A stretch of DNA of 38,586 nt from an uncultured Clostridia bacterium (GTDB lineage: Bacteria > Bacillota > Clostridia > Oscillospirales > Acutalibacteraceae), in the NCBI GenBank assembly GCA_905235625.1, contig CAJOLX010000001.1:1-38586 (forward strand), written 5' to 3'. A program made the translations under genes and the position numbers. Under the pieces are notes generated by a model, which made no database searches, was not told the origin of the DNA, and saw nothing but the letters and a program-made list of their open reading frames with translations. This document shows positions 462 through 12,491 of the stretch, piece after piece; the stretch's first letter is position 1; each line of letters starts with the position of its first letter.

Positions 462-3400
462 CTATTTAAAATATTTGACTGCTGCTTTAAACATTCCTAT
501 GTCGTAGTTGCCGGGCACGTTTTTGTAAAGACCGCTGCCCACACGCTCGCAGTGACCCATTTTGCCGAATACTCTGCCGTCGGGGGAGGTAATGCCCTCA
601 ATAGCGTAAACGGAATTGTTGGGGTTGTATCTCACGTCATAGGTCGCGTTGCCGTCAAGGTCAACGTACTGAGTTGCGATCTGACCGTTTTGAGCAAGCT
701 GCTTTACGAGCTCTTCATCGGCAAGAAATCTGCCTTCGCCGTGAGAAATAGGCATTGAATAAATATCGCCTGTTTCGGTGAGAGAGAGCCACGGTGATTT
801 GTTGGAAGAAATTCTCGTTCTGATTATCTTGCTCTGGTGCCTTGAAATGGTGTTGAAGGTCAGAGTGGGGCAGTTTTCGTCAGTATCAATAATCTTGCCG
901 TAAGGCACAAGACCGAGCTTAATGAGCGCCTGGAAGCCGTTGCAAATGCCGCACATAAGGCCGTCGCGGTTGTCAAGAAGGTCAGTAACACCGTCTTTGA
1001 TAACGCCGTTGCGGAAGAATGCGGTTATGAATTTGCCGCTGCCGTCGGGCTCGTCGCCGCCGGAAAATCCGCCGGGGATGAATATCATCTGAGCCTGCTT
1101 GAGCTTCTCCGCGAAGGTGTCTATGCTCTCTTTAATCGCGGAGGAGGTAAGATTTTTGATAACGATTATTTCGGGCTCCGCTCCCGCGTCTCTCATCGCT
1201 TTGGCGGAGTCGTATTCGCAGTTGGTGCCGGGGAACGCGGGGATAAGCACTCTCGGCTTTGCGCATTTTACGGCGGGAGCGGGGTAAGACGAAGCTTTGT
1301 ATTCAAAGTTTTCTATCTTGCCGTCGGAGCCTTTCACGTTGCAGGAATAAACGCTTTCAAGCTTGCTCTCATAAATTTCGTCAAGCTCCGAAACGCTCAC
1401 TTTTTCGCCCGAGTAGGTGAAATCGCTGCCGTTTGTTATAACGCCTATGGGCTTGCCGCTTCCTATATCTTCCGTCGTTTCAAGCAGGAACGAGCCGTAG
1501 CTGTAGCCGAATATCTCGTCAAGGGTGAGGCTGTCGGAAAATTCAAATCCGAAGCCGTTGCCCATGCTCATCTTGAGCACGGCTTCCGCTATGCCTCCGA
1601 TGCCGGGGGTGTAGCAGGCAACCGCTTTGCCGCTTCTGAGAAGAGAAGTCACTTCGTCAAAAACCTTGAGCAGAGACGAGGTAACGGGCAGGCCGTTTTC
1701 GTCGTGTTCGGGGGATATTATAATCACTTTGCGCCCCGCCTGTTTGAATTCGGGCGACACTATGGACGACACCTTGTCGGTGGTGACGGCGAATGAAACG
1801 AGAGTGGGGGGAACGTCGAGATTTTCAAACGAACCGCTCATTGAGTCTTTGCCGCCGATAGAAGCGATTTTGAGCTCTTCCTGAGCTTTGAACGCGCCGA
1901 GAAGGGCGGCGAGGGGTTTGCCCCAGCGTTTGCCGTCCTTGCCGGGATGCTCAAAATACTCCTGGAAGGTGAGATAAACGTCTTTAAAATCGGTGCCGGT
2001 CGCTATGAGCTTCGCAACGGATTCTATTACCGCAAGGTAAGCGCCGTGATAAGGGCTCTGCTCCGTGATATAGGGATTGTAGCCCCACGACATGAGCGAG
2101 CAGTCGTCGGTGTGCTTTTTCTCAACGGAAATCTTGTGCACCATCGCCTGAATGGGCGTTAACTGATTTTTGCCGCCGAAAGGCATGAGCACGGTGCCCG
2201 CGCCTATGGTGGAGTCAAATCTTTCGGAAAGCCCTCTCTTTGAGCAGACGTTGAGGTCGCCCGCGAGAGCTTTCATATTTTCGCCGAACGAGCCGCTCAC
2301 ATCCTTTTTAACGGAAGCGCTCGGGGCGGGGGTTATGTCAATGTGCTTGTCGGCGCCGTTTGAATTGAGGAATTCTCTCGAAACGTCAACGATTTTTTTG
2401 CCGTTCCAGGTCATCGTGAGCCTCGGCTCGGCTTTAACTGCCGCAACGGGGCATGCCTGCAAGTTTTCGGAATAAGCGAGCTTAAGAAAAGCGTCAACGT
2501 TTTCTTTTTCAACGACGACCGCCATTCTCTCCTGAGATTCGCTTATCGCAAGCTCGGTGCCGTCAAGGCCCTCGTATTTTTTGGGCACGGCGTTAAGGTC
2601 AATGTCAAGGCCGTCCGCAAGCTCTCCTATGGCGACCGATACGCCGCCTGCGCCGAAGTCGTTGCAGCGCTTTATCATCTTTGTCGCTTCGCCGTTTCTG
2701 AAGAGCCTCTGAAGCTTTCTTTCTTCGGGAGCGTTGCCCTTCTGAACCTCGGCTCCGCAGGTCTCAACCGAATGGGAGGTGTGAGCCTTTGACGAGCCCG
2801 TGGCTCCGCCTATGCCGTCGCGGCCCGTTGAGCCGCCGAGAAGTATGACCACGTCGCCGGGCTGAGGCACCTCGCGGCGCACGTTTTCGGCGGGGGCGGC
2901 GGCTATAACAGCGCCTATTTCCATTCTCTTCGCTTCGTAGCCGGGGTGATAAATCTCGTCAACTATGCCCGTCGCAAGTCCAATCTGGTTGCCGTAGGAC
3001 GAATATCCCGCCGCGGCTCCGGTAACGATGCTTCTTTGCGGCAGCTTGCCGGGTATGGTTTCGCTCACGGGCTTTAAGGGGTCGGATGCGCCCGTAATTC
3101 TCATCGCGGCGTAAACGTAGCTTCTGCCCGAGAGCGGGTCGCGTATGGCGCCGCCTATGCAGGTCGCCGCGCCGCCGAAGGGCTCAATCTCCGTGGGATG
3201 ATTGTGAGTCTCGTTTTTGAAGAGAAGCAGCCATGGAGTTTTAACTCCGTCTTCTTCTACCTCGATTTTAACGGTGCAGGCGTTGATTTCTTCGCTCTCG
3301 TCGAGCTTATCGAGCAAGCCCTGCGCTTTAAGGTGCCTTGTGGCTATAGTTGCAAGGTCCATAAGGCAAATGGGCTTCGTTCTGCCGAGCTCTTTTCTTA

Positions 3401-4151
3401 CGGCAACGTAATCGTCGTAAGCCTTTTGAAGCAGGGGGTCTTCAAACTTAACCGAGTCAATGACCGTGAGGAACGTGGTGTGACGGCAGTGATCCGACCA
3501 GTAGGTGTCAATCATGCGAATTTCCGTAATAGTGGGGTCACGGTGTTCGCTCTTAAAGTAAGTCTGGCAAAACTCAATGTCGTCCGCGTCCATTGCGAGG
3601 CCGTAATCCTCGGTGAACTTTTCGAGCCCCGCTCTGTCAAGCGCGTTAAAGCCGTCAAGGGTTGCGACGCTTTCGGGCAGGTCGTAATTCGCCTTGAGGG
3701 TTTCGGGCTTTTCGAGAGCGGCTTCTCTCGACTCAACGGGATTTATAACGTAATTTTTAATCTGAGCTATGTCTTCGTCGGTGAGCGCTCCGTAGAGCTT
3801 GTAAACCTTGGCAGACCTTATGAGCGGTCTCTCGCCCTGAGAGATTATCTGAATGCACTGCGCCGCCGAATCGGCTCTCTGGTCAAACTGACCGGGCAGA
3901 TATTCAACCGCGAAGGTGTAAGAGCCGTCGTCCTCAAGCGAAGAGGTCGCAATATCGAGCTGAGGCTCCGAGAAGACGGTCTTCACGGCGTAGTCAAACA
4001 GCTCTTCGGTTATGTTTTCCGCATCGTAGCGGTTAAAGAGCCTTATCGCCTCAAGATTTTTTATTTCGAGCAGGTTTACCGCGTCGGAACAAAGCTTCTG
4101 AGCTTCGTAGGCAAGCTCTTTTTTCTTTTCAACGTAAATTCTGTATACCAC
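462..4151 (-). CDS. purL: Phosphoribosylformylglycinamidine synthase, single-chain clostridial type
   Basis: This enzyme converts FGAR, glutamine and ATP to FGAM, the fourth step of purine synthesis. All parts are in one chain of 1229 residues: a PurS-like N-terminus, two AIR-synthase-like ATP domains (ETHNHPTEIEPFGGAATCIG lies in the first), and a C-terminal class I glutaminase. The glutaminase has the cysteine nucleophile at about residue 1070 in GICNGFQ and the histidine in PISHGEGRF. I chose GTG at 4151 (giving MVYRIYVEKK) because GGGAGG lies 7 nt upstream. The longer frame to 4286 would run back through the end of purD. Only 4 nt separate it from the purD stop, so its ribosome binding site lies inside the last purD codons. 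B. subtilis instead uses separate PurS, PurQ and PurL. Confidence 0.97.
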   Translation of the reverse strand: MVYRIYVEKKKELAYEAQKLCSDAVNLLEIKNLEAIRLFNRYDAENITEELFDYAVKTVFSEPQLDIATSSLEDDGSYTFAVEYLPGQFDQRADSAAQCIQIISQGERPLIRSAKVYKLYGALTDEDIAQIKNYVINPVESREAALEKPETLKANYDLPESVATLDGFNALDRAGLEKFTEDYGLAMDADDIEFCQTYFKSEHRDPTITEIRMIDTYWSDHCRHTTFLTVIDSVKFEDPLLQKAYDDYVAVRKELGRTKPICLMDLATIATRHLKAQGLLDKLDESEEINACTVKIEVEEDGVKTPWLLLFKNETHNHPTEIEPFGGAATCIGGAIRDPLSGRSYVYAAMRITGASDPLKPVSETIPGKLPQRSIVTGAAAGYSSYGNQIGLATGIVDEIYHPGYEAKRMEIGAVIAAAPAENVRREVPQPGDVVILLGGSTGRDGIGGATGSSKAHTSHSVETCGAEVQKGNAPEERKLQRLFRNGEATKMIKRCNDFGAGGVSVAIGELADGLDIDLNAVPKKYEGLDGTELAISESQERMAVVVEKENVDAFLKLAYSENLQACPVAAVKAEPRLTMTWNGKKIVDVSREFLNSNGADKHIDITPAPSASVKKDVSGSFGENMKALAGDLNVCSKRGLSERFDSTIGAGTVLMPFGGKNQLTPIQAMVHKISVEKKHTDDCSLMSWGYNPYITEQSPYHGAYLAVIESVAKLIATGTDFKDVYLTFQEYFEHPGKDGKRWGKPLAALLGAFKAQEELKIASIGGKDSMSGSFENLDVPPTLVSFAVTTDKVSSIVSPEFKQAGRKVIIISPEHDENGLPVTSSLLKVFDEVTSLLRSGKAVACYTPGIGGIAEAVLKMSMGNGFGFEFSDSLTLDEIFGYSYGSFLLETTEDIGSGKPIGVITNGSDFTYSGEKVSVSELDEIYESKLESVYSCNVKGSDGKIENFEYKASSYPAPAVKCAKPRVLIPAFPGTNCEYDSAKAMRDAGAEPEIIVIKNLTSSAIKESIDTFAEKLKQAQMIFIPGGFSGGDEPDGSGKFITAFFRNGVIKDGVTDLLDNRDGLMCGICNGFQALIKLGLVPYGKIIDTDENCPTLTFNTISRHQSKIIRTRISSNKSPWLSLTETGDIYSMPISHGEGRFLADEELVKQLAQNGQIATQYVDLDGNATYDVRYNPNNSVYAIEGITSPDGRVFGKMGHCERVGSGLYKNVPGNYDIGMFKAAVKYFK

Positions 4152-4155
4152 GGCT

Positions 4156-5421
4156 TTACCTCCCTGCCTTGAGGGCTCTTGCCCCAATGTCGCTGCGATA
4201 AAATGCGTTATCGAACGATATTTTCTTAACGAGCTCGTAGGCGCCTTTAACTGCGTCTTCGAGAGTGTCGGCGGTTTCGACCGCACCGAGCACTCTGCCG
4301 CCGCTCGTTACGAGCTTGCCGTCCTTGAGCGCCGCTCCCGCAACGTAAACGCTGCCCGAAATTTCATCGGGTATTGCTATTTCATAGCCCTTTTCGTAAG
4401 AAACGGGATAGCCCTTTGAAGCCATGATAACGCAGCAGGCGTTTTTATCGGCAAATTTTACTTCGGTGCTCTCGAGCGTGCCGTTTGTCGTGGCCTGCAT
4501 TATTTCAAGCAGGTCGCTTTCGAGCAGGGGAAGCACGACCTGGGTTTCGGGGTCTCCGAAGCGGCAGTTGTATTCTATGACCTTGGGGCCGTTCGGCGTT
4601 ATCATAAGGCCGAAATAAAGGCAACCCTTGAACGTTCTGCCCTCGGCGTTCATCGCGTTTATCGTGGGGATGAATATCTTTTCCATGCACTCTGCGGCAA
4701 CCTCGGGGGTGTAGTAGGGATTGGGCGCTACCGTGCCCATTCCGCCCGTGTTAAGGCCCGTGTCGCCGTCGCCGGCTCTCTTGTGGTCCATTGAAGACAC
4801 CATGGGCTTAACGGTTTTGCCGTCGGTGAACGCAAGCACCGAAACCTCGGGGCCCGTTAGGAATTCCTCAACTACAACGCTCTCACCGCTCTTGCCGAAC
4901 GCTTTATCCTGCATCATCGAAATTACGGCTCTCTTCGCGTCGTCGTGAGTTTCGGCGATTATAACGCCTTTTCCGAGAGCGAGACCGTCAGCCTTGATGA
5001 CCGTCGGCACGGGAGCTTTTTCAACGTAAGCAAGCGCTTCGTTAAGGTCGGTGAAGGTTTCGTATTCGGCGGTGGGTATGCCGTATTTTTTCATAAGGTT
5101 TTTGGAAAACACCTTGCTGCCCTCGATTATCGCCGCTTTCGCCTCGGGGCCGAAGCAGGGTATTCCCTTTGCCTCAAGAGCGTCAACGCAGCCGAGCACG
5201 AGGGGGTCGTCGGTCGCTACCACCGCATAGTCAACGCCTTCCTTTACGGCAAAATCGGTTATTCCGTCAATGTCCGTTGCGCCTATAGGCACGCAGACGG
5301 CGTCGGCGGCTATTCCTCCGTTGCCGGGAAGGGCGTAAATGGTTTCAACGTTTTTGTTTTCTTTAAGCTTTTTGATAATGGCGTGTTCTCTTCCGCCGCT
5401 GCCAACAACCAAAAGTTTCAT
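4156..5421 (-). CDS. purD: Phosphoribosylamine--glycine ligase (GARS)
   Basis: It ligates phosphoribosylamine and glycine with ATP to give GAR, the second purine step. The protein has 421 residues, the usual size. It starts with the characteristic MKLLVVGSGGREHAI and has the ATP-grasp segment GPEAKAAIIEGSKVFSKN. The substrate-binding stretch GGMGTVAPNPYY and the metal/ATP site NCRFGDPETQ are also present. The ATG at 5421 is preceded by AAGGAG with 7 nt spacing. It lies 19 nt after the AICAR transformylase gene and 4 nt before purL, firmly inside the operon. Nothing is missing or unusual. It is cytoplasmic. Confidence 0.97.
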   Translation of the reverse strand: MKLLVVGSGGREHAIIKKLKENKNVETIYALPGNGGIAADAVCVPIGATDIDGITDFAVKEGVDYAVVATDDPLVLGCVDALEAKGIPCFGPEAKAAIIEGSKVFSKNLMKKYGIPTAEYETFTDLNEALAYVEKAPVPTVIKADGLALGKGVIIAETHDDAKRAVISMMQDKAFGKSGESVVVEEFLTGPEVSVLAFTDGKTVKPMVSSMDHKRAGDGDTGLNTGGMGTVAPNPYYTPEVAAECMEKIFIPTINAMNAEGRTFKGCLYFGLMITPNGPKVIEYNCRFGDPETQVVLPLLESDLLEIMQATTNGTLESTEVKFADKNACCVIMASKGYPVSYEKGYEIAIPDEISGSVYVAGAALKDGKLVTSGGRVLGAVETADTLEDAVKGAYELVKKISFDNAFYRSDIGARALKAGR

Positions 5422-5440: not shown

Positions 5441-6625
5441 TCAGTGATGGAAAAGTCTCATGCCGGTGAACGCCATGGCGATGCCGTATTTGTCGCAGCA
5501 TTCGATAACGGCGTCATCTCTGATTGAGCCGCCGGGCTCCGCGATGTATTTTACGCCGCTGCGGTAAGCTCTTTCAATGTTGTCGCTGAAGGGGAAGAAA
5601 GCGTCGGAGCCGAGAGCGACGTCGGTCTGCTTCGCAAGGAACTCTTTGGCTTCCTCGTCGGTGAGAGGCGAGGGCTGAGAGGTGAAATATTTCTGCCAGT
5701 TGCCGTCTGCGCAAACGTCTTCTTCATTCTTGTTGATGTAGCCGTCGATAACGTTGTCTCTGTCAGGTCTGCCGATGTCGGGCTTAAAGGGGAGGTTAAG
5801 AACCTTCTCGTGCTGACGAAGGAACCAGGTGTCCGCCTTTGAGCCTGCGAGACGGGTGCAGTGAATTCTTGACTGCTGACCCGCTCCCACGCCTATGGCC
5901 TGGCCGTCAACGGCGTAGCAAACGGAATTTGACTGGGTGTATTTAAGAGTAATGAGTGAAATTATAAGGTCGCGCACTGCGCTTTCGGGCAGGTCTTTGT
6001 TTGCGGTGACAACGTTTGAGAGCAGCTCTTTGTTTATTTCAAAATTGTTTCTGCCCTGCTCGAAGGTGATGCCGTAAACCTGCTTGCGCTCGGTGGGCTC
6101 CGGCACGTAGTCTGGATCGATCTTAACTATGTTGTAGCTGCCTTTTCTCTTTGACTTGAGAATTTCGAGAGCTTCGGGCTCATAGCCGGGAGCGATAACG
6201 CCGTCGGAAACCTCTCTCTTTATCATCTTTGCGGTGGTAACGTCGCAAACGTCCGAGAGCGCTACCCAGTCGCCGAAGGAGCACATACGGTCGGTGCCTC
6301 TCGCTCTTGCGTAAGCGCAGGCGAGGGGAGAATCGTCAAGGCCTTCTATATCGTCAACGAAGCAGGCCTTCTTGAGAGTGTCGGAAAGGGGAATGCCGAC
6401 CGCCGCCGAGGTGGGGCTCACGTGCTTAAAGGAGGTTACGGCGGGGAGGCCGAGAGCTTCCTTTAATTCCTTAACGAGCTGCCATGAATTGAAAGCGTCA
6501 AGGAAATTGATGTATCCGGGCTTGCCGCAGAGGATCTCTATGGGCAGGTCGTCGCCGTTTGCCATAAATATTTTGGAAGGCTTCTGATTGGGGTTGCAGC
6601 CGTATTTGAGTTCAAATTCTTTCAT
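5441..6625 (-). CDS. purH: AICAR formyltransferase without the IMP cyclohydrolase domain (PurH-type)
   Basis: It formylates AICAR with 10-formyl-THF to FAICAR, the ninth step of the pathway. The 394-residue protein corresponds to the AICARFT domain of PurH only. It begins MKEFELKYGCNPNQKPSKIF and has the catalytic Lys-His pair at about residues 67-68 (TSFKHVSP). Other family blocks are RGTDRMCSFGDWVA, the QSNSVCYA segment, VGAGQQSRIHCTRLAG and DAFFPFSDNIERA. The MGS-like IMP cyclohydrolase domain found at the N-terminus of usual PurH (about 520 residues) is absent. The following gene in the operon, encoded at 6642-7364, supplies a PurO-type cyclohydrolase instead. The ATG at 6625 follows a GGAGAGGAG site. 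Confidence 0.93.
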   Translation of the reverse strand: MKEFELKYGCNPNQKPSKIFMANGDDLPIEILCGKPGYINFLDAFNSWQLVKELKEALGLPAVTSFKHVSPTSAAVGIPLSDTLKKACFVDDIEGLDDSPLACAYARARGTDRMCSFGDWVALSDVCDVTTAKMIKREVSDGVIAPGYEPEALEILKSKRKGSYNIVKIDPDYVPEPTERKQVYGITFEQGRNNFEINKELLSNVVTANKDLPESAVRDLIISLITLKYTQSNSVCYAVDGQAIGVGAGQQSRIHCTRLAGSKADTWFLRQHEKVLNLPFKPDIGRPDRDNVIDGYINKNEEDVCADGNWQKYFTSQPSPLTDEEAKEFLAKQTDVALGSDAFFPFSDNIERAYRSGVKYIAEPGGSIRDDAVIECCDKYGIAMAFTGMRLFHH

Positions 6626-6641
6626 GTTTTTTCTCCTCTCC

Positions 6642-7364
6642 TTATTTAACGTATTTGTTTACGAGTCTGTTTTCGATTTCTCCGGTTTCAAGGTCAATGT
6701 AGCGAACGTAAAGAGAAATCTTATTGTCTTCGTTAAGACCGTTCCAGAGCGTGTTTGTAAATTCATCTATGCTGTCGGGTATCTGCACTCTTTCGGGCTC
6801 TCCCTGGAATGAGGGGATGGGGCCGCCGTCGCAGACATAGGTGTGCAGGAAATGGCCCACTCCGTTAAGCGGAGCGTAAGAGAAGGTAAATCTGTTGCAT
6901 GCGGAGCCTACAGCGTCCGCGCTCTTGAGAATGCTCATCTCATAGGTGAAATTGTCTTTGTCGAGATTGAGCACCGCGCTGATTCTCGGCGTGTAATTGG
7001 GGCTGTCGGGCTCGAATTCTCTCGTTGCGAGAGCTCCCGAAAAGCTGCCGCCCGCCTTGACGCCTTCATAAATGGTGTCGGTCTGGTCGCCGTTTGTGAC
7101 GATGAGCTTATTGCCGAGTGTGCGAACGGCGGCGTAAATGATGAGGCTCGGGTCTTCAACCTTTGAGGAATCGAAGGGCTCGGTGAAAACTTCGCCGTTT
7201 CTTTCGGCAAAAACGCGGTTTCTGCTGTTTGCGCTTCTGCCCATGATGAAGTAGGCGGCAACTGCCTTCTTGCCGTCACTTGATTTGCCCGCGACAATTC
7301 CTCTGCCTACGTAGGAATTGTCTTTGATGAGCTCGCCGATGTCGTTTACCTTGTAAATGTCCAT
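6642..7364 (-). CDS. purO: IMP cyclohydrolase, PurO type
   Basis: It is predicted to close the FAICAR ring to IMP, the last step of the pathway. The 240-residue protein matches the PurO/IMP_cyclohyd fold first described in archaea. The family signature IMGRSANSRNRVF is near residue 50, NGDQTDTIYEG near 110, and YTPRISAVLNL follows. ATG at 7364 (MDIYKVNDIG) is preferred because GGAGG lies 9 nt upstream. The longer reading from 7382 would start at GTG and translate through that ribosome binding site. It sits 16 nt before the truncated PurH gene, which lacks this very activity, so the context supports the assignment strongly. Biochemical function in this lineage is inferred from family and context. 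Confidence 0.9.
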   Translation of the reverse strand: MDIYKVNDIGELIKDNSYVGRGIVAGKSSDGKKAVAAYFIMGRSANSRNRVFAERNGEVFTEPFDSSKVEDPSLIIYAAVRTLGNKLIVTNGDQTDTIYEGVKAGGSFSGALATREFEPDSPNYTPRISAVLNLDKDNFTYEMSILKSADAVGSACNRFTFSYAPLNGVGHFLHTYVCDGGPIPSFQGEPERVQIPDSIDEFTNTLWNGLNEDNKISLYVRYIDLETGEIENRLVNKYVK

Positions 7365-7409
7365 TTTGTGATACCTCCACACAGATTTATTTGAGTCGCC
7401 TTATTGATT

Positions 7410-8027
7410 TTATTGCCTTTCAGCCAGCATCTTTTTGCTGACTTCCTCCGCCGAAGCGGGTAAAATTATCCATTCAGCCTGCTCCATGACCCTTCTTTGC
7501 AGGATTTCCGGAGTGTCGCCGGGCTCAACGTTAACGGCCTTTTGCATTATGATTTCTCCGCCGTCGGGAATTTCATTCACAAAATGCACCGTGGCTCCCG
7601 TCACTTTAACGCCCTTTTCGAGCGCCGCCTTATGCACCCTCAGGCCGTAAAAGCCCTCGCCGCAGAAGGACGGAATGAGCGACGGATGAACGTTGATTAT
7701 TCTGTTTCTGAAGTGAGAAGTGAAATTCTCGCTGAGAATTACCATAAATCCGGCAAGAATGATAAGGTCGGTGCTGTTGTCGTCAATGAGCTTAATAAGG
7801 TCTTTTTCAAAATCGGATTTGTCCCGATAGCTCTTTTTTTCGATAACCGCGGTCTTTACTCCGGCGTTTTCGGCTCTTGTCAGAGCGTAGGCGTCGGGCT
7901 TGTCGGATACAACGAGAGAAATCTCGCCGCTTTTAAGCACACCGCTTTTCTGAGCGTCCAGAAGAGCCTGCAGATTGGTGCCTCCTCCGGAAACGAGCAC
8001 CGTTATTTTTATTTTTTTATTATTCAT
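7410..8027 (-). CDS. purN: Phosphoribosylglycinamide formyltransferase
   Basis: It transfers a formyl group from 10-formyl-THF to GAR, giving FGAR (third step). The 205-residue protein has the N-terminal ITVLVSGGGTNLQALL loop and the catalytic block NVHPSLIPSF with its histidine. It also has VTGATVHFV and the acidic PDGGEII segment that carries the catalytic aspartate. It overlaps the end of the formate-channel gene by 8 nt (8020-8027), so the two are probably translationally coupled. That coupling is notable because PurN depends on formate-derived one-carbon units. The length is normal. Confidence 0.95.
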   Translation of the reverse strand: MNNKKIKITVLVSGGGTNLQALLDAQKSGVLKSGEISLVVSDKPDAYALTRAENAGVKTAVIEKKSYRDKSDFEKDLIKLIDDNSTDLIILAGFMVILSENFTSHFRNRIINVHPSLIPSFCGEGFYGLRVHKAALEKGVKVTGATVHFVNEIPDGGEIIMQKAVNVEPGDTPEILQRRVMEQAEWIILPASAEEVSKKMLAERQ

Positions 8028-8631
8028 TTCTTTTGCCCTCTTTGAACAAAGTCAGCGCGCAGAGAAGAATCGCGCCGATTGAGTTGCCGAGAATTACAGT
8101 CACTATGAAGGCGAGAGTTCTCAGTGAGAATATGCCCGCCGCCGCGAAATAATACATATCGGCGATTGAGTGCTCAAAGCCGCTGAGAATGAATACGGGT
8201 ATGCAAAAGAGAATTGCGAGCGGAGTCTTGTGGTCTCTGAAAATGCTCACGGCAAGATACATCAGCACGCCGCAGAAAATTCCTCTGATTAAAGACTGCG
8301 GAAGCTGCTGGCCGAGCTTCGCGTTGCAGATAACCGCCGCCGCGTCTCTTATGCCGGGAATTGCGTAAGCGGTAAGAATGCCGCAGAGAGCGGAAGCTAT
8401 CGTGTTGCCGAGCAGGCCCAGAAAGAGAACGGACAGCTCCTCTTTGCCGTGCTTTTCGGGCAGATAACCAACCTTGCCGGTAAACAGGGAGTAGCCCTTG
8501 TAGCAGATGCAAAGCAGCGCTACCGAAAAGAAGAAGGCTCCCGCGTATCTGTTTTCGCAGGCAAGGAACACCGTGCCGCCGATGGAAATGAGAATACCGG
8601 CGTTAATGCCGTTTACGGTTTTTCTCAGCAT
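8020..8631 (-). CDS. Formate/nitrite transporter (FNT) family channel, short form
   Basis: This is a membrane protein of 203 residues with about six hydrophobic segments. FNT-like features are [15 protein letters not shown] at the start, a repeat-like [12 protein letters not shown], then [27 protein letters not shown] and [14 protein letters not shown]. FocA/NirC proteins are usually 250-290 residues; here the N- and C-terminal tails and some loops are short. It overlaps purM by 7 nt and purN by 8 nt, so it is locked into the purine operon. Family members pass formate, nitrite or hydrosulfide. Formate is the natural guess here because fhs, purN and the AICAR transformylase lie in the same operon, but the substrate cannot be read from the sequence. 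Confidence 0.85.
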
Positions 8632-9671: not shown

Positions 9672-11093
9672 TTATTCCTTTCCGCTCCAGCAATAGGTGC
9701 AAAGCTCGTCTTCGTCAATGCCTATCGCTTCGATAATTCCGCTGAGTGTTTGGAAATCGAGTGAATCGAAGTTGAGCTTTTTGCATATCGTATTGCGCAG
9801 GTTTTTGCCTCTTTCGGTGCTGCCGTCGCAGTATTCGTCAATGTGCTTAAAGCCTTCTTCGCCCTCAAGCTCCATTATGGTGCTTCTTGAGATAAGCTCC
9901 ATATCGCTCGTTGCGCGGGAGAAATTGAGATATTTGCAGCCGTACATGATCGGAGGGCAGGCGGAGCGCATGTGCACTGATTTCGCGCCGTTTGAGTAGA
10001 GAAATTCAACCGTTTCTCTGAGCTGTGTGCCTCTTACTATGGAGTCGTCCACAAACAGAAGGTCTTTGCCGTTAATGAGGTCGTTAACGGGCAGCAGCTT
10101 CATCTTGGCTACTTTGTTTCTGTCGCTCTGATTTGTCGGCATAAAGCTTCGAAGCCACGTTTGAGTGTATTTGATGAACGGTCTGCCGAAGGGAGTGTCG
10201 CAGTTGTTTGAATATCCTATGGCGTGAGCCGTGCCCGAATCGGGAACGCCGGCAACGAAGTCAAGGTGGCTGTCAAAGCCCTTTTCCCTGTCGTTTCTCG
10301 CCATTATTTCGCCGTTTTTAACGCGCATTACCTCAACGTTTACGCCCTCGTAGGTCGCGGTCGGGTAGCCGTAATAAGACCAGAGGAACGCGCAAATCCT
10401 CTTCTTTTTGCCGGGAGGCGTGAGCGTGGTAACTCCGTCGGCTGTCATCTCAACCGCTTCGCCGGGGCCGAGCTCGCGATAATCGGAATAGCCGAGCTTC
10501 TGATATGCGAAAGACTCAAACGAAACGCAGTAGCCGTCTTCGCGCTTGCCCAGAATTACCGGAAGCCTGCCGACCTTGTCCCTCGCGGCGATGATTTTGC
10601 CGTCTTCGGTAAGAATGAGAATGGAGGCGGTGCCTTCAATCTTTTCCTGAGCGTAACGAATGCCCTCGGCAAAGCTGTTTTTGCGGCTGATGAGAGCGCC
10701 GATAAGCTCGGAGTTGTTCGTTTCGCCCTTTGTCATGGCGTTTAACGTTGCGCCGCCGTCGATGCAGTCGTCAATTATTTTCTGCTTGTTGTTTATAATT
10801 CCTATCGTGCTTATGGCGAAGGTGCCCAGATGTGATTTAATAAGCAGAGGCTGAGGGTCGGTGTCGCTTATGCAGCCGATTGCCGCCGGGCCGTGCATTT
10901 CATCAAACACCTTGTCAAATTTGGTGCGGAAAGGAGTTTTTTCAATGCTGTGTATCTGGCGCTGAAGACCGAAATCGGGGTCATAAGCCGCCATACCGCC
11001 GCTCCTTGTGCCTAAATGCGAATGATAGTCGGTTCCGAAGAAAACGTCGTTAATTGCGTCCTCTTTGTTAACCGCTCCGAAGAATCCACCCAT
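9672..11093 (-). CDS. purF: PurF-type amidophosphoribosyltransferase lacking the N-terminal catalytic cysteine
   Basis: It should make phosphoribosylamine from PRPP, the first step of the pathway. The 473-residue protein has the PRPP loop LLFVDDSIVRGTQL (about 345-358). It also has the cysteines expected to ligate a 4Fe-4S cluster as in B. subtilis PurF (C234, C379 or C386, C465 and C468). The N-terminal half aligns with an Ntn glutaminase, but the start reads MGGFFGAV where standard PurF has Cys-Gly-(Val/Ile)-Phe-Gly after propeptide removal. No upstream in-frame codon supplies a cysteine, and RGQE is replaced by LGTR. The ATG at 11093 has GGAGAA 9 nt upstream. It may use free ammonia. No other PurF is in the window. 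Confidence 0.9.
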   Translation of the reverse strand: MGGFFGAVNKEDAINDVFFGTDYHSHLGTRSGGMAAYDPDFGLQRQIHSIEKTPFRTKFDKVFDEMHGPAAIGCISDTDPQPLLIKSHLGTFAISTIGIINNKQKIIDDCIDGGATLNAMTKGETNNSELIGALISRKNSFAEGIRYAQEKIEGTASILILTEDGKIIAARDKVGRLPVILGKREDGYCVSFESFAYQKLGYSDYRELGPGEAVEMTADGVTTLTPPGKKKRICAFLWSYYGYPTATYEGVNVEVMRVKNGEIMARNDREKGFDSHLDFVAGVPDSGTAHAIGYSNNCDTPFGRPFIKYTQTWLRSFMPTNQSDRNKVAKMKLLPVNDLINGKDLLFVDDSIVRGTQLRETVEFLYSNGAKSVHMRSACPPIMYGCKYLNFSRATSDMELISRSTIMELEGEEGFKHIDEYCDGSTERGKNLRNTICKKLNFDSLDFQTLSGIIEAIGIDEDELCTYCWSGKE

Positions 11094-11108: not shown

Positions 11109-11819
11109 TTATTCACCGAAAACTCTGTGCATCATTTCTTTGTAAGCGTCTTCAACGCCGCCCATGTCGCGGCGGAAACGGTCTTTGTCGAGCTTCTCGT
11201 TTGTTTCGGCATCCCAGAAGCGGCAGGTGTCGGGAGAAATCTCGTCCGCAAGCACTATTGCGCCGTCGGAGGTCTTGCCGAACTCAAGCTTAAAGTCTAT
11301 CAGCTTAACGCCGAGCTTGAGGAAATATGCCTTGAGCACGTCGTTAACCTTGAAAGCCATCGCTTTTATCTGCTCTATTTCTTCGGCGGTTGCGAGCTTA
11401 AGAGCCATGGCGTGATAGTCGTTGATGAGAGGATCGTGAAGATCGTCGTTTTTGTAAGAAAACTCTATCGTGGGAGCGTCAAAAACGATGCCCTCCTCAA
11501 CGCCGTATCTCTTTGCGAAAGAGCCTGCGGAAACGTTGCGGATAATGACCTCGAGGGGAACGATAGAAACCTTCTTAACGACGGTTTCTCTGTCGTTGAT
11601 CTCCTCAACGAAGTGAGTGGGCACGCCTTCCTTTTCAAGGATTTGCATAAGGAAGTTTGACATGCGGTTGTTTACGACTCCCTTTCCCGCGATGGTGCCT
11701 TTTTTGGTGCCGTCAAAAGCGGTGGCGTCATCCTTGTAGGAAACGATAACGTAGTTGTCGTCCTCGGTTGCGTAAACCTTTTTTGCTTTGCCTTCATAGA
11801 GCTGTTTTGCCTTTTCCAC
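11109..11819 (-). CDS. purC: Phosphoribosylaminoimidazole-succinocarboxamide synthase (SAICAR synthetase)
   Basis: It condenses CAIR with aspartate using ATP to give SAICAR. The 236-residue protein has [10 protein letters not shown] at the start, DDATAFDG, the [17 protein letters not shown] block and DFKLEFG. The [13 protein letters not shown] motif near the C-terminal third is also diagnostic. I chose GTG at 11819 because GGAGG lies 8 nt upstream; the longer frame begins at TTG and reads through that site. It lies 20 nt after purE and 15 nt before purF. Size and motifs are those of the usual bacterial enzyme. Confidence 0.97.
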
Positions 11820-11839
11820 TGTTATTACCTCCAAATTGT

Positions 11840-12334
11840 TTATTGCTTAAACTGTTTGTTTATTTTTTCGTCTTTTTCGAGCACCGCCTCGGCGTCCTTT
11901 GCGCGCTTTGCGTCGAGCTTTGCGGCAAGAGCAGCGTCTTCAACGGCAAGTATCTGAGCGCAGAGAAGAGCCGCGTTCGCGCCGCCGTTAACGGCTACGG
12001 TCGCAACGGGAATGCCCGAGGGCATCATCACGGTTGAAAGCAGAGCGTCAACTCCGTCCATAACGGAGGATTTGCACGGAATGCCTATAACGGGCAGGGT
12101 GGTGTTTGCCGCAATCGCTCCGGCAAGATGCGCCGCCATACCTGCCGCGGCAATTATCGCTCCGAAACCGTTTTCTCTCGCAGAGAGTGCAAACGCCCTT
12201 GCCTGCTCGGGAGTGCGGTGCGCCGAATACACGTGCACCTCATAAGGTATCTCCAAAGCGTCAAGGGTGTCGGTAGCTTTTTGTATCACGGGAAGGTCGC
12301 TGTCGCTCCCCATTACAATGCCTACTTTTTTCAT
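11840..12334 (-). CDS. purE: N5-carboxyaminoimidazole ribonucleotide mutase / AIR carboxylase, PurE
   Basis: It makes CAIR, from N5-CAIR in the class I system or from AIR and CO2 in class II. The 164-residue protein has [13 protein letters not shown], the SAHRTPEQA loop with its catalytic histidine, and [12 protein letters not shown]. The class I consensus has AGGAAHL at that last position. [13 protein letters not shown] follows. ATG at 12334 is used because AAAGGAGGT ends a few bases upstream; the longer frame would include that site. It is the first gene of the operon, directly after the ZTP riboswitch. No purK is present in the window, so which PurE chemistry is used cannot be decided here. 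Confidence 0.96.
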
Positions 12335-12349
12335 GAAATTACCTCCTTT

Positions 12350-12376
12350 GAAAAGCAAAAGAGCGCACTTGCTCTC
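12350..12376 (-). terminator. Hairpin and U-run after the riboswitch (likely attenuator)
   Basis: On the minus strand GAGAGC-AAGT-GCGCTC forms a short stem with one mismatch and is followed by TTTTGCTTTT. It sits between the riboswitch core and the purE ribosome binding site. This is where an expression platform that stops transcription unless ZTP is bound would be expected. The stem is weak, so its role is inferred from position. Confidence 0.6.
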
Positions 12377-12388
12377 TCAAAAAAGCAA

Positions 12389-12461
12389 GGCGCCCAGACG
12401 GTCGGCTTCAAGAAACTCCGTTCCACTGTGGTGCTCCACAATTATCCGTCAGTAACGGGCT
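12389..12461 (-). promoter_or_regulatory. ZTP (pfl) riboswitch
   Basis: Read on the minus strand, the leader contains ACTGACGGATAA and then a hairpin GTGGAGCACCAC. About 25 nt later come GCCGACCGTCTGGGC, which match the conserved CCGNCUGGGC pseudoknot half of the pfl motif. The first part can pair with the last (CTGACGG region with CCGTC), as in known ZTP aptamers. ZTP/ZMP builds up when 10-formyl-THF is short, and this RNA class switches on purine and folate one-carbon genes. It lies between a sigma-A promoter and purE, at the head of an operon containing fhs, purN and purH, which is a textbook context. Confidence 0.93.
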
Positions 12462-12491
12462 TCCTCTTTTTAACTTTTCAATACTATATGT

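Follow-up and report, generated by a model that had tools for sequence, protein, structure and literature searches.

Cys-less PurF in the purine operon

The window analysed here, a stretch of 38,586 nucleotides from an uncultured Clostridia bacterium (contig CAJOLX010000001.1), carries on its minus strand a purine operon in which one gene, hereafter called purF′, encodes a PurF paralogue without the catalytic cysteine. The protein (P0001; 473 amino acids; window 9672-11093) starts MGGFFGAV in place of the canonical (M)CGVFG, with Gly2 (M-G-G at 11085..11093, minus strand) sitting where the catalytic Cys1 belongs, and HLGTR stands in place of the canonical HRGQE. The sequence AAGGAG precedes the ATG of purF′. 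An in-frame TAA, which is the stop codon of purC, lies five codons 5′ of this ATG, and neither a Cys nor an alternative start was found in these five codons; thus no other start could expose a Cys, a mis-called start was ruled out, and the start fixed in the original prediction proved sound. The ten genes of the cluster run in the order purE-purC-purF′-purM-FNT-purN-purO-purH C-half-purD-purL, and the features are as follows:

12385..12466, minus strand: ZMP/ZTP riboswitch RF01750, directly 5′ of purE (53.9 bits; gathering threshold 39)
11840..12358, minus strand: purE (TIGR01162, above cut-off)
11109..11834, minus strand: purC (TIGR00081, 255 bits, above cut-off)
9672..11093, minus strand: purF′ (P0001), Cys-less PurF paralogue, 473 amino acids
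8625..9668, minus strand: purM (TIGR00878, above cut-off)
8020..8631, minus strand: formate/nitrite-transporter (FNT) family channel (PF01226, 90.3 bits)
7410..8027, minus strand: purN (TIGR00639, above cut-off)
6642..7382, minus strand: PurO-type inosine monophosphate (IMP) cyclohydrolase (PF07826, 213.7 bits; NCBIfam PurO models below their cut-offs)
5441..6625, minus strand: aminoimidazole carboxamide ribonucleotide (AICAR) formyltransferase of the PRK07106 type, the PurH C-half (NF005492, above cut-off)
4156..5421, minus strand: purD (TIGR00877, above cut-off)
462..4286, minus strand: purL, large form, with the glutaminase Cys motif GICNGFQ

The gene had been placed at the head of the operon, which was incorrect, as it is the third gene after purE and purC. 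PurL, present here in its large form, retains its glutaminase Cys motif; the loss is thus specific to PurF, and an operon-wide abandonment of glutamine was ruled out. No dedicated ammonia-supplying partner was seen beside purF′ among the genes looked for. The riboswitch before purE presumably controls the operon. IMP is apparently made by the PurO-type cyclohydrolase together with the separate AICAR formyltransferase (window 5441-7382), and not by a bifunctional PurH.

Residues lost and kept in the family

Residues were counted in 178 distinct family sequences and compared with 19 canonical PurFs. The family members were those reading frames of the retrieved loci with more similarity to P0001 than to canonical PurF, and they were picked by similarity and not by motif (136 sequences before the final loci were added). 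An earlier set of 108 sequences had been picked by the MGG start; its 108/108 Gly was circular and was not used, and the set hid the members that carry Ser or start with GTG or TTG. Part of the identity and invariance figures, including those on the N-domain motif described below, rests on these 108 sequences.

The Cys1 position was occupied by Gly in 169 and by Ser in 8 of the 178 members, was cut off in one, and was Cys in none. The Arg of RGQ was replaced by Leu in 178/178, and its Gln by Thr in 176 (Ile once, Met once), so that the two replacements read in the single protein by the original prediction, Cys1 and RGQE to LGTR, were confirmed across the family. The glutamine-loop stretch with the equivalents of R73 and Y74 was deleted in all 178, the Asn of HNG was changed to Val, Ile or Thr in all 178, and the Asp of SDTE was gone in 177. 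A sequencing or assembly artefact was ruled out as the cause of the Cys loss by the 178 distinct sequences. RGQ, the R73/Y74 loop, the HNG Asn and the SDTE Asp are the elements that bind glutamine in canonical PurF. The existence of a glutamine loop is described in the literature (PMC7056826).

The transferase site was retained. In the phosphoribosyl pyrophosphate (PRPP) loop, DDS and VRG were found in all 177 readable members and the following Thr in 176; in the pyrophosphate loop PDSG, the Pro, Asp and Gly were kept in 178/178 and the Ser in 177/178; and in the flexible loop the Lys was kept in 178/178 and the Arg in 176/177. All three loops, including the PRPP loop that had been predicted to be intact, are present in P0001 itself and were kept in 176 to 178 of the 178 members per position checked. 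Five cysteines had been proposed as iron-sulphur ligands, of which four match canonical PurF, namely C234 (178/178) and C386, C465 and C468 (each in 177/177 readable members); the fifth, C379, is invariant in the family and is Ser or Ala in 19/19 canonical PurFs, which makes it an extra Cys of this family.

P0001 scored 171.8 bits with the TIGR01134 model, below the cut-off of 350. Its predicted model, compared by VIA-align, matched the PurF fold, with the N-terminal nucleophile (Ntn) domain and the phosphoribosyltransferase domain, over the full length, and a sequence search of the PDB with P0001 returned canonical PurFs only. The eight members with Ser at the Cys1 position start with MSG (L121, L145, L146, L147, L148, L152, L153 and L157; loci are numbered with L and genomes with G), and seven of them come from genomes in which no canonical PurF was found. 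The N-domain also carries a near-invariant motif specific to the family, GTDYHSHLGT (residues 20-29 of P0001), together with H48.

Gene neighbourhood in relatives

The surroundings of purF′ were compared in 80 named loci, whose record titles were nearly all Clostridia or families therein (L102 is titled 'uncultured bacterium'). The operons were probed with the purine gene set of the window. Within 400 bp upstream of purF′, the next tested gene was purC in 42 loci and purE in 32, with a contig end in 4 and none in 2; within 400 bp downstream, it was purM in 73 and canonical purF in 5, with none in 2. The same purine genes, some cut by contig ends, surrounded purF′ in nine loci from genomes without canonical PurF (L131-L136 and L141-L143), and in one of these, L136, purC, purO and the purH half were undetected with the genes of the window as probes. 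Canonical and Cys-less purF were adjacent in the pur operon, in either order, in G264, G611, G422 and G529.

The ZMP/ZTP riboswitch was also found before purE in L134, L135 and L137. L132 has it between purO and purN, and in L054 and L067 it precedes purF′ by 1.3-1.4 kb; L056 has a purine riboswitch instead. The FNT channel gene, which lies between purM and purN in the window, had a homologue in the sequenced surroundings of 16 of the 80 named loci. Such a channel may supply formate to the 10-formyl-folate steps.

Canonical PurF in the same genome and distribution of the two forms

A second PurF with the canonical Cys and RGQE (511.6 bits with TIGR01134) was found on another contig, C58, of the genome of the window, adjoining genes that resemble parts of a split glutamate synthase. 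The original prediction had named such a second copy as the finding that would speak against it, and for this genome it does: the organism need not rely on ammonia to begin purine synthesis.

The Cys-less form was present in 24 of 39 relatives (matches with at least 56% identity). In a sample of the phylum, 20 of 299 genomes (own included) carried it, separated by a score gap from at least 685 bits to at most 227 bits among the matches listed, and each of the 20 had at least one further PurF-type match. A sample of the order consisted of 297 near-complete genomes (own included; completeness at least 95%). The first-look classification scored up to five candidates per genome, and the sole-copy set was the one rechecked with all candidates. 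The Cys-less family was found in 171/297 genomes and canonical PurF above the cut-off in 217/297, and the suggestion that the Cys-less start is a lineage trait of Clostridia was thus supported. Both forms were counted in 109 genomes, canonical PurF only in 109, the Cys-less form only in 62 (41 genera, 11 families), and neither in 17.

When the 63 apparent sole-copy genomes, together with G021 and G024, were rechecked with the canonical protein, one canonical fragment was obtained, at a contig edge in G488; this doubtful case was counted as having both PurFs. In all 62 genomes with the Cys-less form only, the protein was read, giving 55 Gly, 7 Ser and no Cys, with the loop deleted in 62/62. Genome incompleteness was rejected as the cause of this class, as all 62 genomes are at least 95% complete and 15 of them at least 99%. 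The other matches were also rejected as hidden PurFs, since the four tested were all GlmS and the rest were of the same size and covered the N-domain only.

The gene purD was present in 60 of the 62 Cys-less-only genomes (all except G339 and G607) and in 4 of the 17 with neither PurF; five genomes with canonical PurF were without it. Among the 277 genomes with purD, 108 had both forms, 105 the canonical only, 60 the Cys-less only and 4 neither, a pattern of mutual substitution with a Fisher p of 2.8e-11. It held when a single genome was drawn from each of 130 genera (over 500 draws the median p was 9e-7 and the worst 1.3e-4) and when stratified by family (z = -5.8). It seems that either PurF suffices for purine-making genomes, few of which lack both.

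The four genomes with purD and neither PurF found (G340, G364, G365 and G595) may have gaps in their assemblies or may obtain phosphoribosylamine in a different way. Two Cys-less copies together with a canonical-type match were seen in G195 and in G002. A search of viral contigs gave 34 pattern matches and no relative.

Association with Amt and nitrogen genes

A match to the ammonium transporter Amt was found in 86/109 genomes with both PurFs and in 73/109 with the canonical only, as compared with 4/62 with the Cys-less only (two of the four, in G423 and G616, being weak) and 1/17 with neither. The difference between genomes with both forms and those with the Cys-less only had a p of 1e-21. 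Among genomes of up to 3.05 Mb it held in each of three size classes (p 8e-5, 7e-8 and 2e-6), with 12 larger two-PurF genomes lying outside these classes. It also held after stratification by family (z = -7.7) and when a single genome was taken from each of 81 genera (the median p was 8e-10 and the worst 6e-8). The control gene trpB showed no difference (70/109 with both vs 41/62 with the Cys-less only; p = 0.87). When 40 of the 62 and 40 of the 109 genomes were tested for AsnB, a match was obtained in 22/40 Cys-less-only and 36/40 two-PurF genomes, and the type of about 530 amino acids, by manual reading of the matches, in 3/40 and 24/40, respectively.

In the relatives whose surroundings were read, canonical purF lay among nitrogen genes. 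On one strand, G380 (L165:1152-13001) carries glutamine synthetase type III (GS-III), Amt, AsnB, CTP synthase, PurF, CarA and CarB; G017 (L129:7400-19917) carries GS-III, AsnB, GuaA, CTP synthase, PurF, CarA (from position and size) and CarB; and G508 (L166:4395-11349) carries GS-III, Amt-PII and AsnB followed by the canonical PurF (by position). In G020, canonical purF was near Amt-PII and glutamate-synthase-like genes, and by coordinates no more than about 7 kb separates amt from canonical purF in G380, G509, G614, G508, G543, G414 and G615. By contrast, in the tandem genomes G264, G611, G422 and G529 canonical purF is inside the pur operon. The runs of glutamine enzymes in G017, G380 and G508 look like a low-ammonium glutamine operon.

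Members beyond the order

Full-length proteins bearing this signature were found in Peptoclostridium acidaminophilum DSM 3953 (54% identity), Bacteroides finegoldii (46%) and Parabacteroides distasonis (46%), which extends the trait beyond the order; a fourth, in Phocaeicola massiliensis (45%), is known from an unaligned search match. The Peptoclostridium and Bacteroides homologues have the accessions WP_025436666.1 and WP_007756110.1, respectively. In the Peptoclostridium record and the two Bacteroidota records, pepT follows the Cys-less gene (L158:10001-12800, L159:8001-11904 and L160:8001-11783), and in the two Bacteroidota gcvT comes after pepT; purine genes are absent beside the Cys-less gene in all three annotated records. 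The synteny of Cys-less purF and pepT is common to two phyla. Peptide breakdown and glycine cleavage both release ammonia, so that this neighbourhood fits an ammonia user.

Comparison with known systems

The full-length predicted fold of P0001 resembles that of canonical PurF (TIGR01134; B. subtilis 1ao0, E. coli 1ecb), as do the PRPP and pyrophosphate loops, the Lys and Arg of the flexible loop and the four iron-sulphur cysteines of the B. subtilis type. The identity is about 30%, and the Cys-less family differs by an insertion near the C-terminus and by the loss of Cys1, the glutamine loop and nearly all glutamine-binding residues.

A PurF paralogue without the N-terminal Cys, also near purine genes, is known from Crenarchaeota as PurF′ and was suggested, as an untested hypothesis, to be an ammonia-dependent phosphoribosylpyrophosphate aminotransferase (Brown et al., 2011; PMC3261824). 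The likeness to it is drawn from the published description. Every Crenarchaeon studied also has canonical PurF, whereas 62 of the 171 carriers here were without a canonical copy found, and many crenarchaeal proteins have Ala or Val at Cys1, where the bacterial family has Gly and sometimes Ser (PMC3261824). The same source relates that, once Cys1 of E. coli PurF had been replaced by Ala or Ser, the enzyme used ammonia and not glutamine (Mei and Zalkin, 1989, via PMC3261824). The Ser result bears on the eight Ser-bearing members of the family. The E. coli protein is a laboratory mutant whose glutamine site is otherwise intact, whereas here a whole natural family is concerned. Carbamoyl-phosphate synthetase I, whose glutaminase domain belongs to a different class, is an unrelated enzyme with the same way of working as proposed for Cys-less PurF. 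In terrestrial vertebrates it has kept the glutaminase domain, lost the Cys and uses free ammonia (PMC7657897). No report of a bacterial Cys-less PurF was found in the open-licence literature searched, in which PMC3261824 was the sole close precedent. The present analysis adds the bacterial family, the near-uniform loss of its active site, its standing as the sole PurF found in 62/297 genomes, and the link with the absence of Amt.

Proposed function and alternative explanations

We propose that the Cys-less PurF is an ammonia-dependent phosphoribosylamine synthase that divides the labour with canonical PurF, and we give this explanation as a whole a probability of roughly 0.78. The ammonia substrate, the kinetics and the division of labour are what we infer from the lost and kept residues, the predicted fold, the operon, the distribution, the mutual substitution and the Amt link. 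The protein has kept the predicted two-domain fold, the iron-sulphur site and the PRPP-transferase site and has lost the glutamine-hydrolysing site, and it would combine PRPP with free ammonia to give phosphoribosylamine directly. Where both forms occur, the Cys-less enzyme would serve ammonia-replete growth and canonical PurF ammonium-poor growth, and lineages that abandoned ammonium scavenging would often have dropped the latter. Bacteria with the Cys-less form as their only PurF probably start purines from free ammonia, judging from comparative genomics; the first step on free ammonia that the original prediction envisaged is favoured for the family by the sole-copy genomes and the Amt link, while the organism of the window, with its canonical copy, need not work in this way.

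A glutaminase acting in trans might instead feed ammonia to the Cys-less protein. It could be a canonical PurF that shares an oligomer with it, the glutaminase domain of PurL or another enzyme, and the step would then still be fed indirectly by glutamine or amino acids. In favour of this, the two purF genes are neighbours in some operons (G264, G611, G422 and G529; 5/80 named loci), PurL of the same operon has its glutaminase Cys motif, and in two Bacteroidota the gene is near gcvT, whose known reaction releases ammonia. However, canonical PurF was not found in 62/297 genomes, and no recurrent extra gene appeared in the operons probed with the genes of the window, where other gap genes are without annotation; we therefore consider this explanation unlikely. 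The degenerate glutaminase site and the frequent company of canonical PurF (109/297) would also suit a pseudo-enzyme, a regulator or scaffold that, for example, tunes canonical PurF by binding PRPP or nucleotides, or hands phosphoribosylamine to PurD. This is very improbable, as the transferase active site is nearly invariant across 178 sequences and the protein stands alone in 62 genomes, 60 of them with purD, where some enzyme must make phosphoribosylamine. We give just as little credence to a phosphoribosyltransferase that uses an acceptor other than ammonia, be it a different amine or nitrogen derived from an amino acid, for which the altered N-domain pocket would be the new site. The conserved new N-domain motif, the extra invariant Cys379 and the presence of pepT beside the gene in Peptoclostridium and two Bacteroidota are in its favour, but it would not lead one to expect the position in the purine operon or the way the protein takes the place of canonical PurF where purD is kept.

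Several points weigh against the ammonia-dependent synthase. The case is built on comparative genomics; the sampled genomes are probably for the most part metagenome assemblies, and the relatedness among them was only partly controlled. The genome of the window also carries canonical PurF, which makes ammonia dispensable in this organism and does not account for the family. The Amt link is one-sided, 36/109 canonical-only genomes being without an Amt match. Members beside pepT, outside pur operons, may have another role. Ser (8/178, of which 7 in sole-copy genomes) is a possible Ntn nucleophile, although the glutamine site is otherwise gone, and the N-domain motif (GTDYHSHLGT, H48) is conserved beyond the needs of a bare relic.

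On a broader scale, gut-type Clostridia might have a nitrogen economy with two settings, in which a cluster of glutamine enzymes would serve at low ammonium and the ammonia-only PurF at high ammonium. That cluster would comprise, in varying combinations, GS-III, Amt, AsnB, CTP synthase, GuaA and CarAB with canonical PurF. In permanently ammonia-rich niches, Amt and canonical PurF would have been lost together, leaving free ammonia as the sole donor for the first purine atom. The odds on this wider picture appear to us about even.

The annotation 'amidophosphoribosyltransferase' is misleading for the Cys-less family, and with named bacteria at hand (Peptoclostridium acidaminophilum; Bacteroides and Parabacteroides species) the archaeal PurF′ hypothesis of 2011 would become directly testable. 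Glutamine-dependent PurF is regarded as the standard, regulated way into purine synthesis. If the proposed function is true, many Clostridia would couple purine synthesis directly to environmental ammonia, the Cys-less form being the sole PurF found in about one-fifth of the genomes sampled (62/297).
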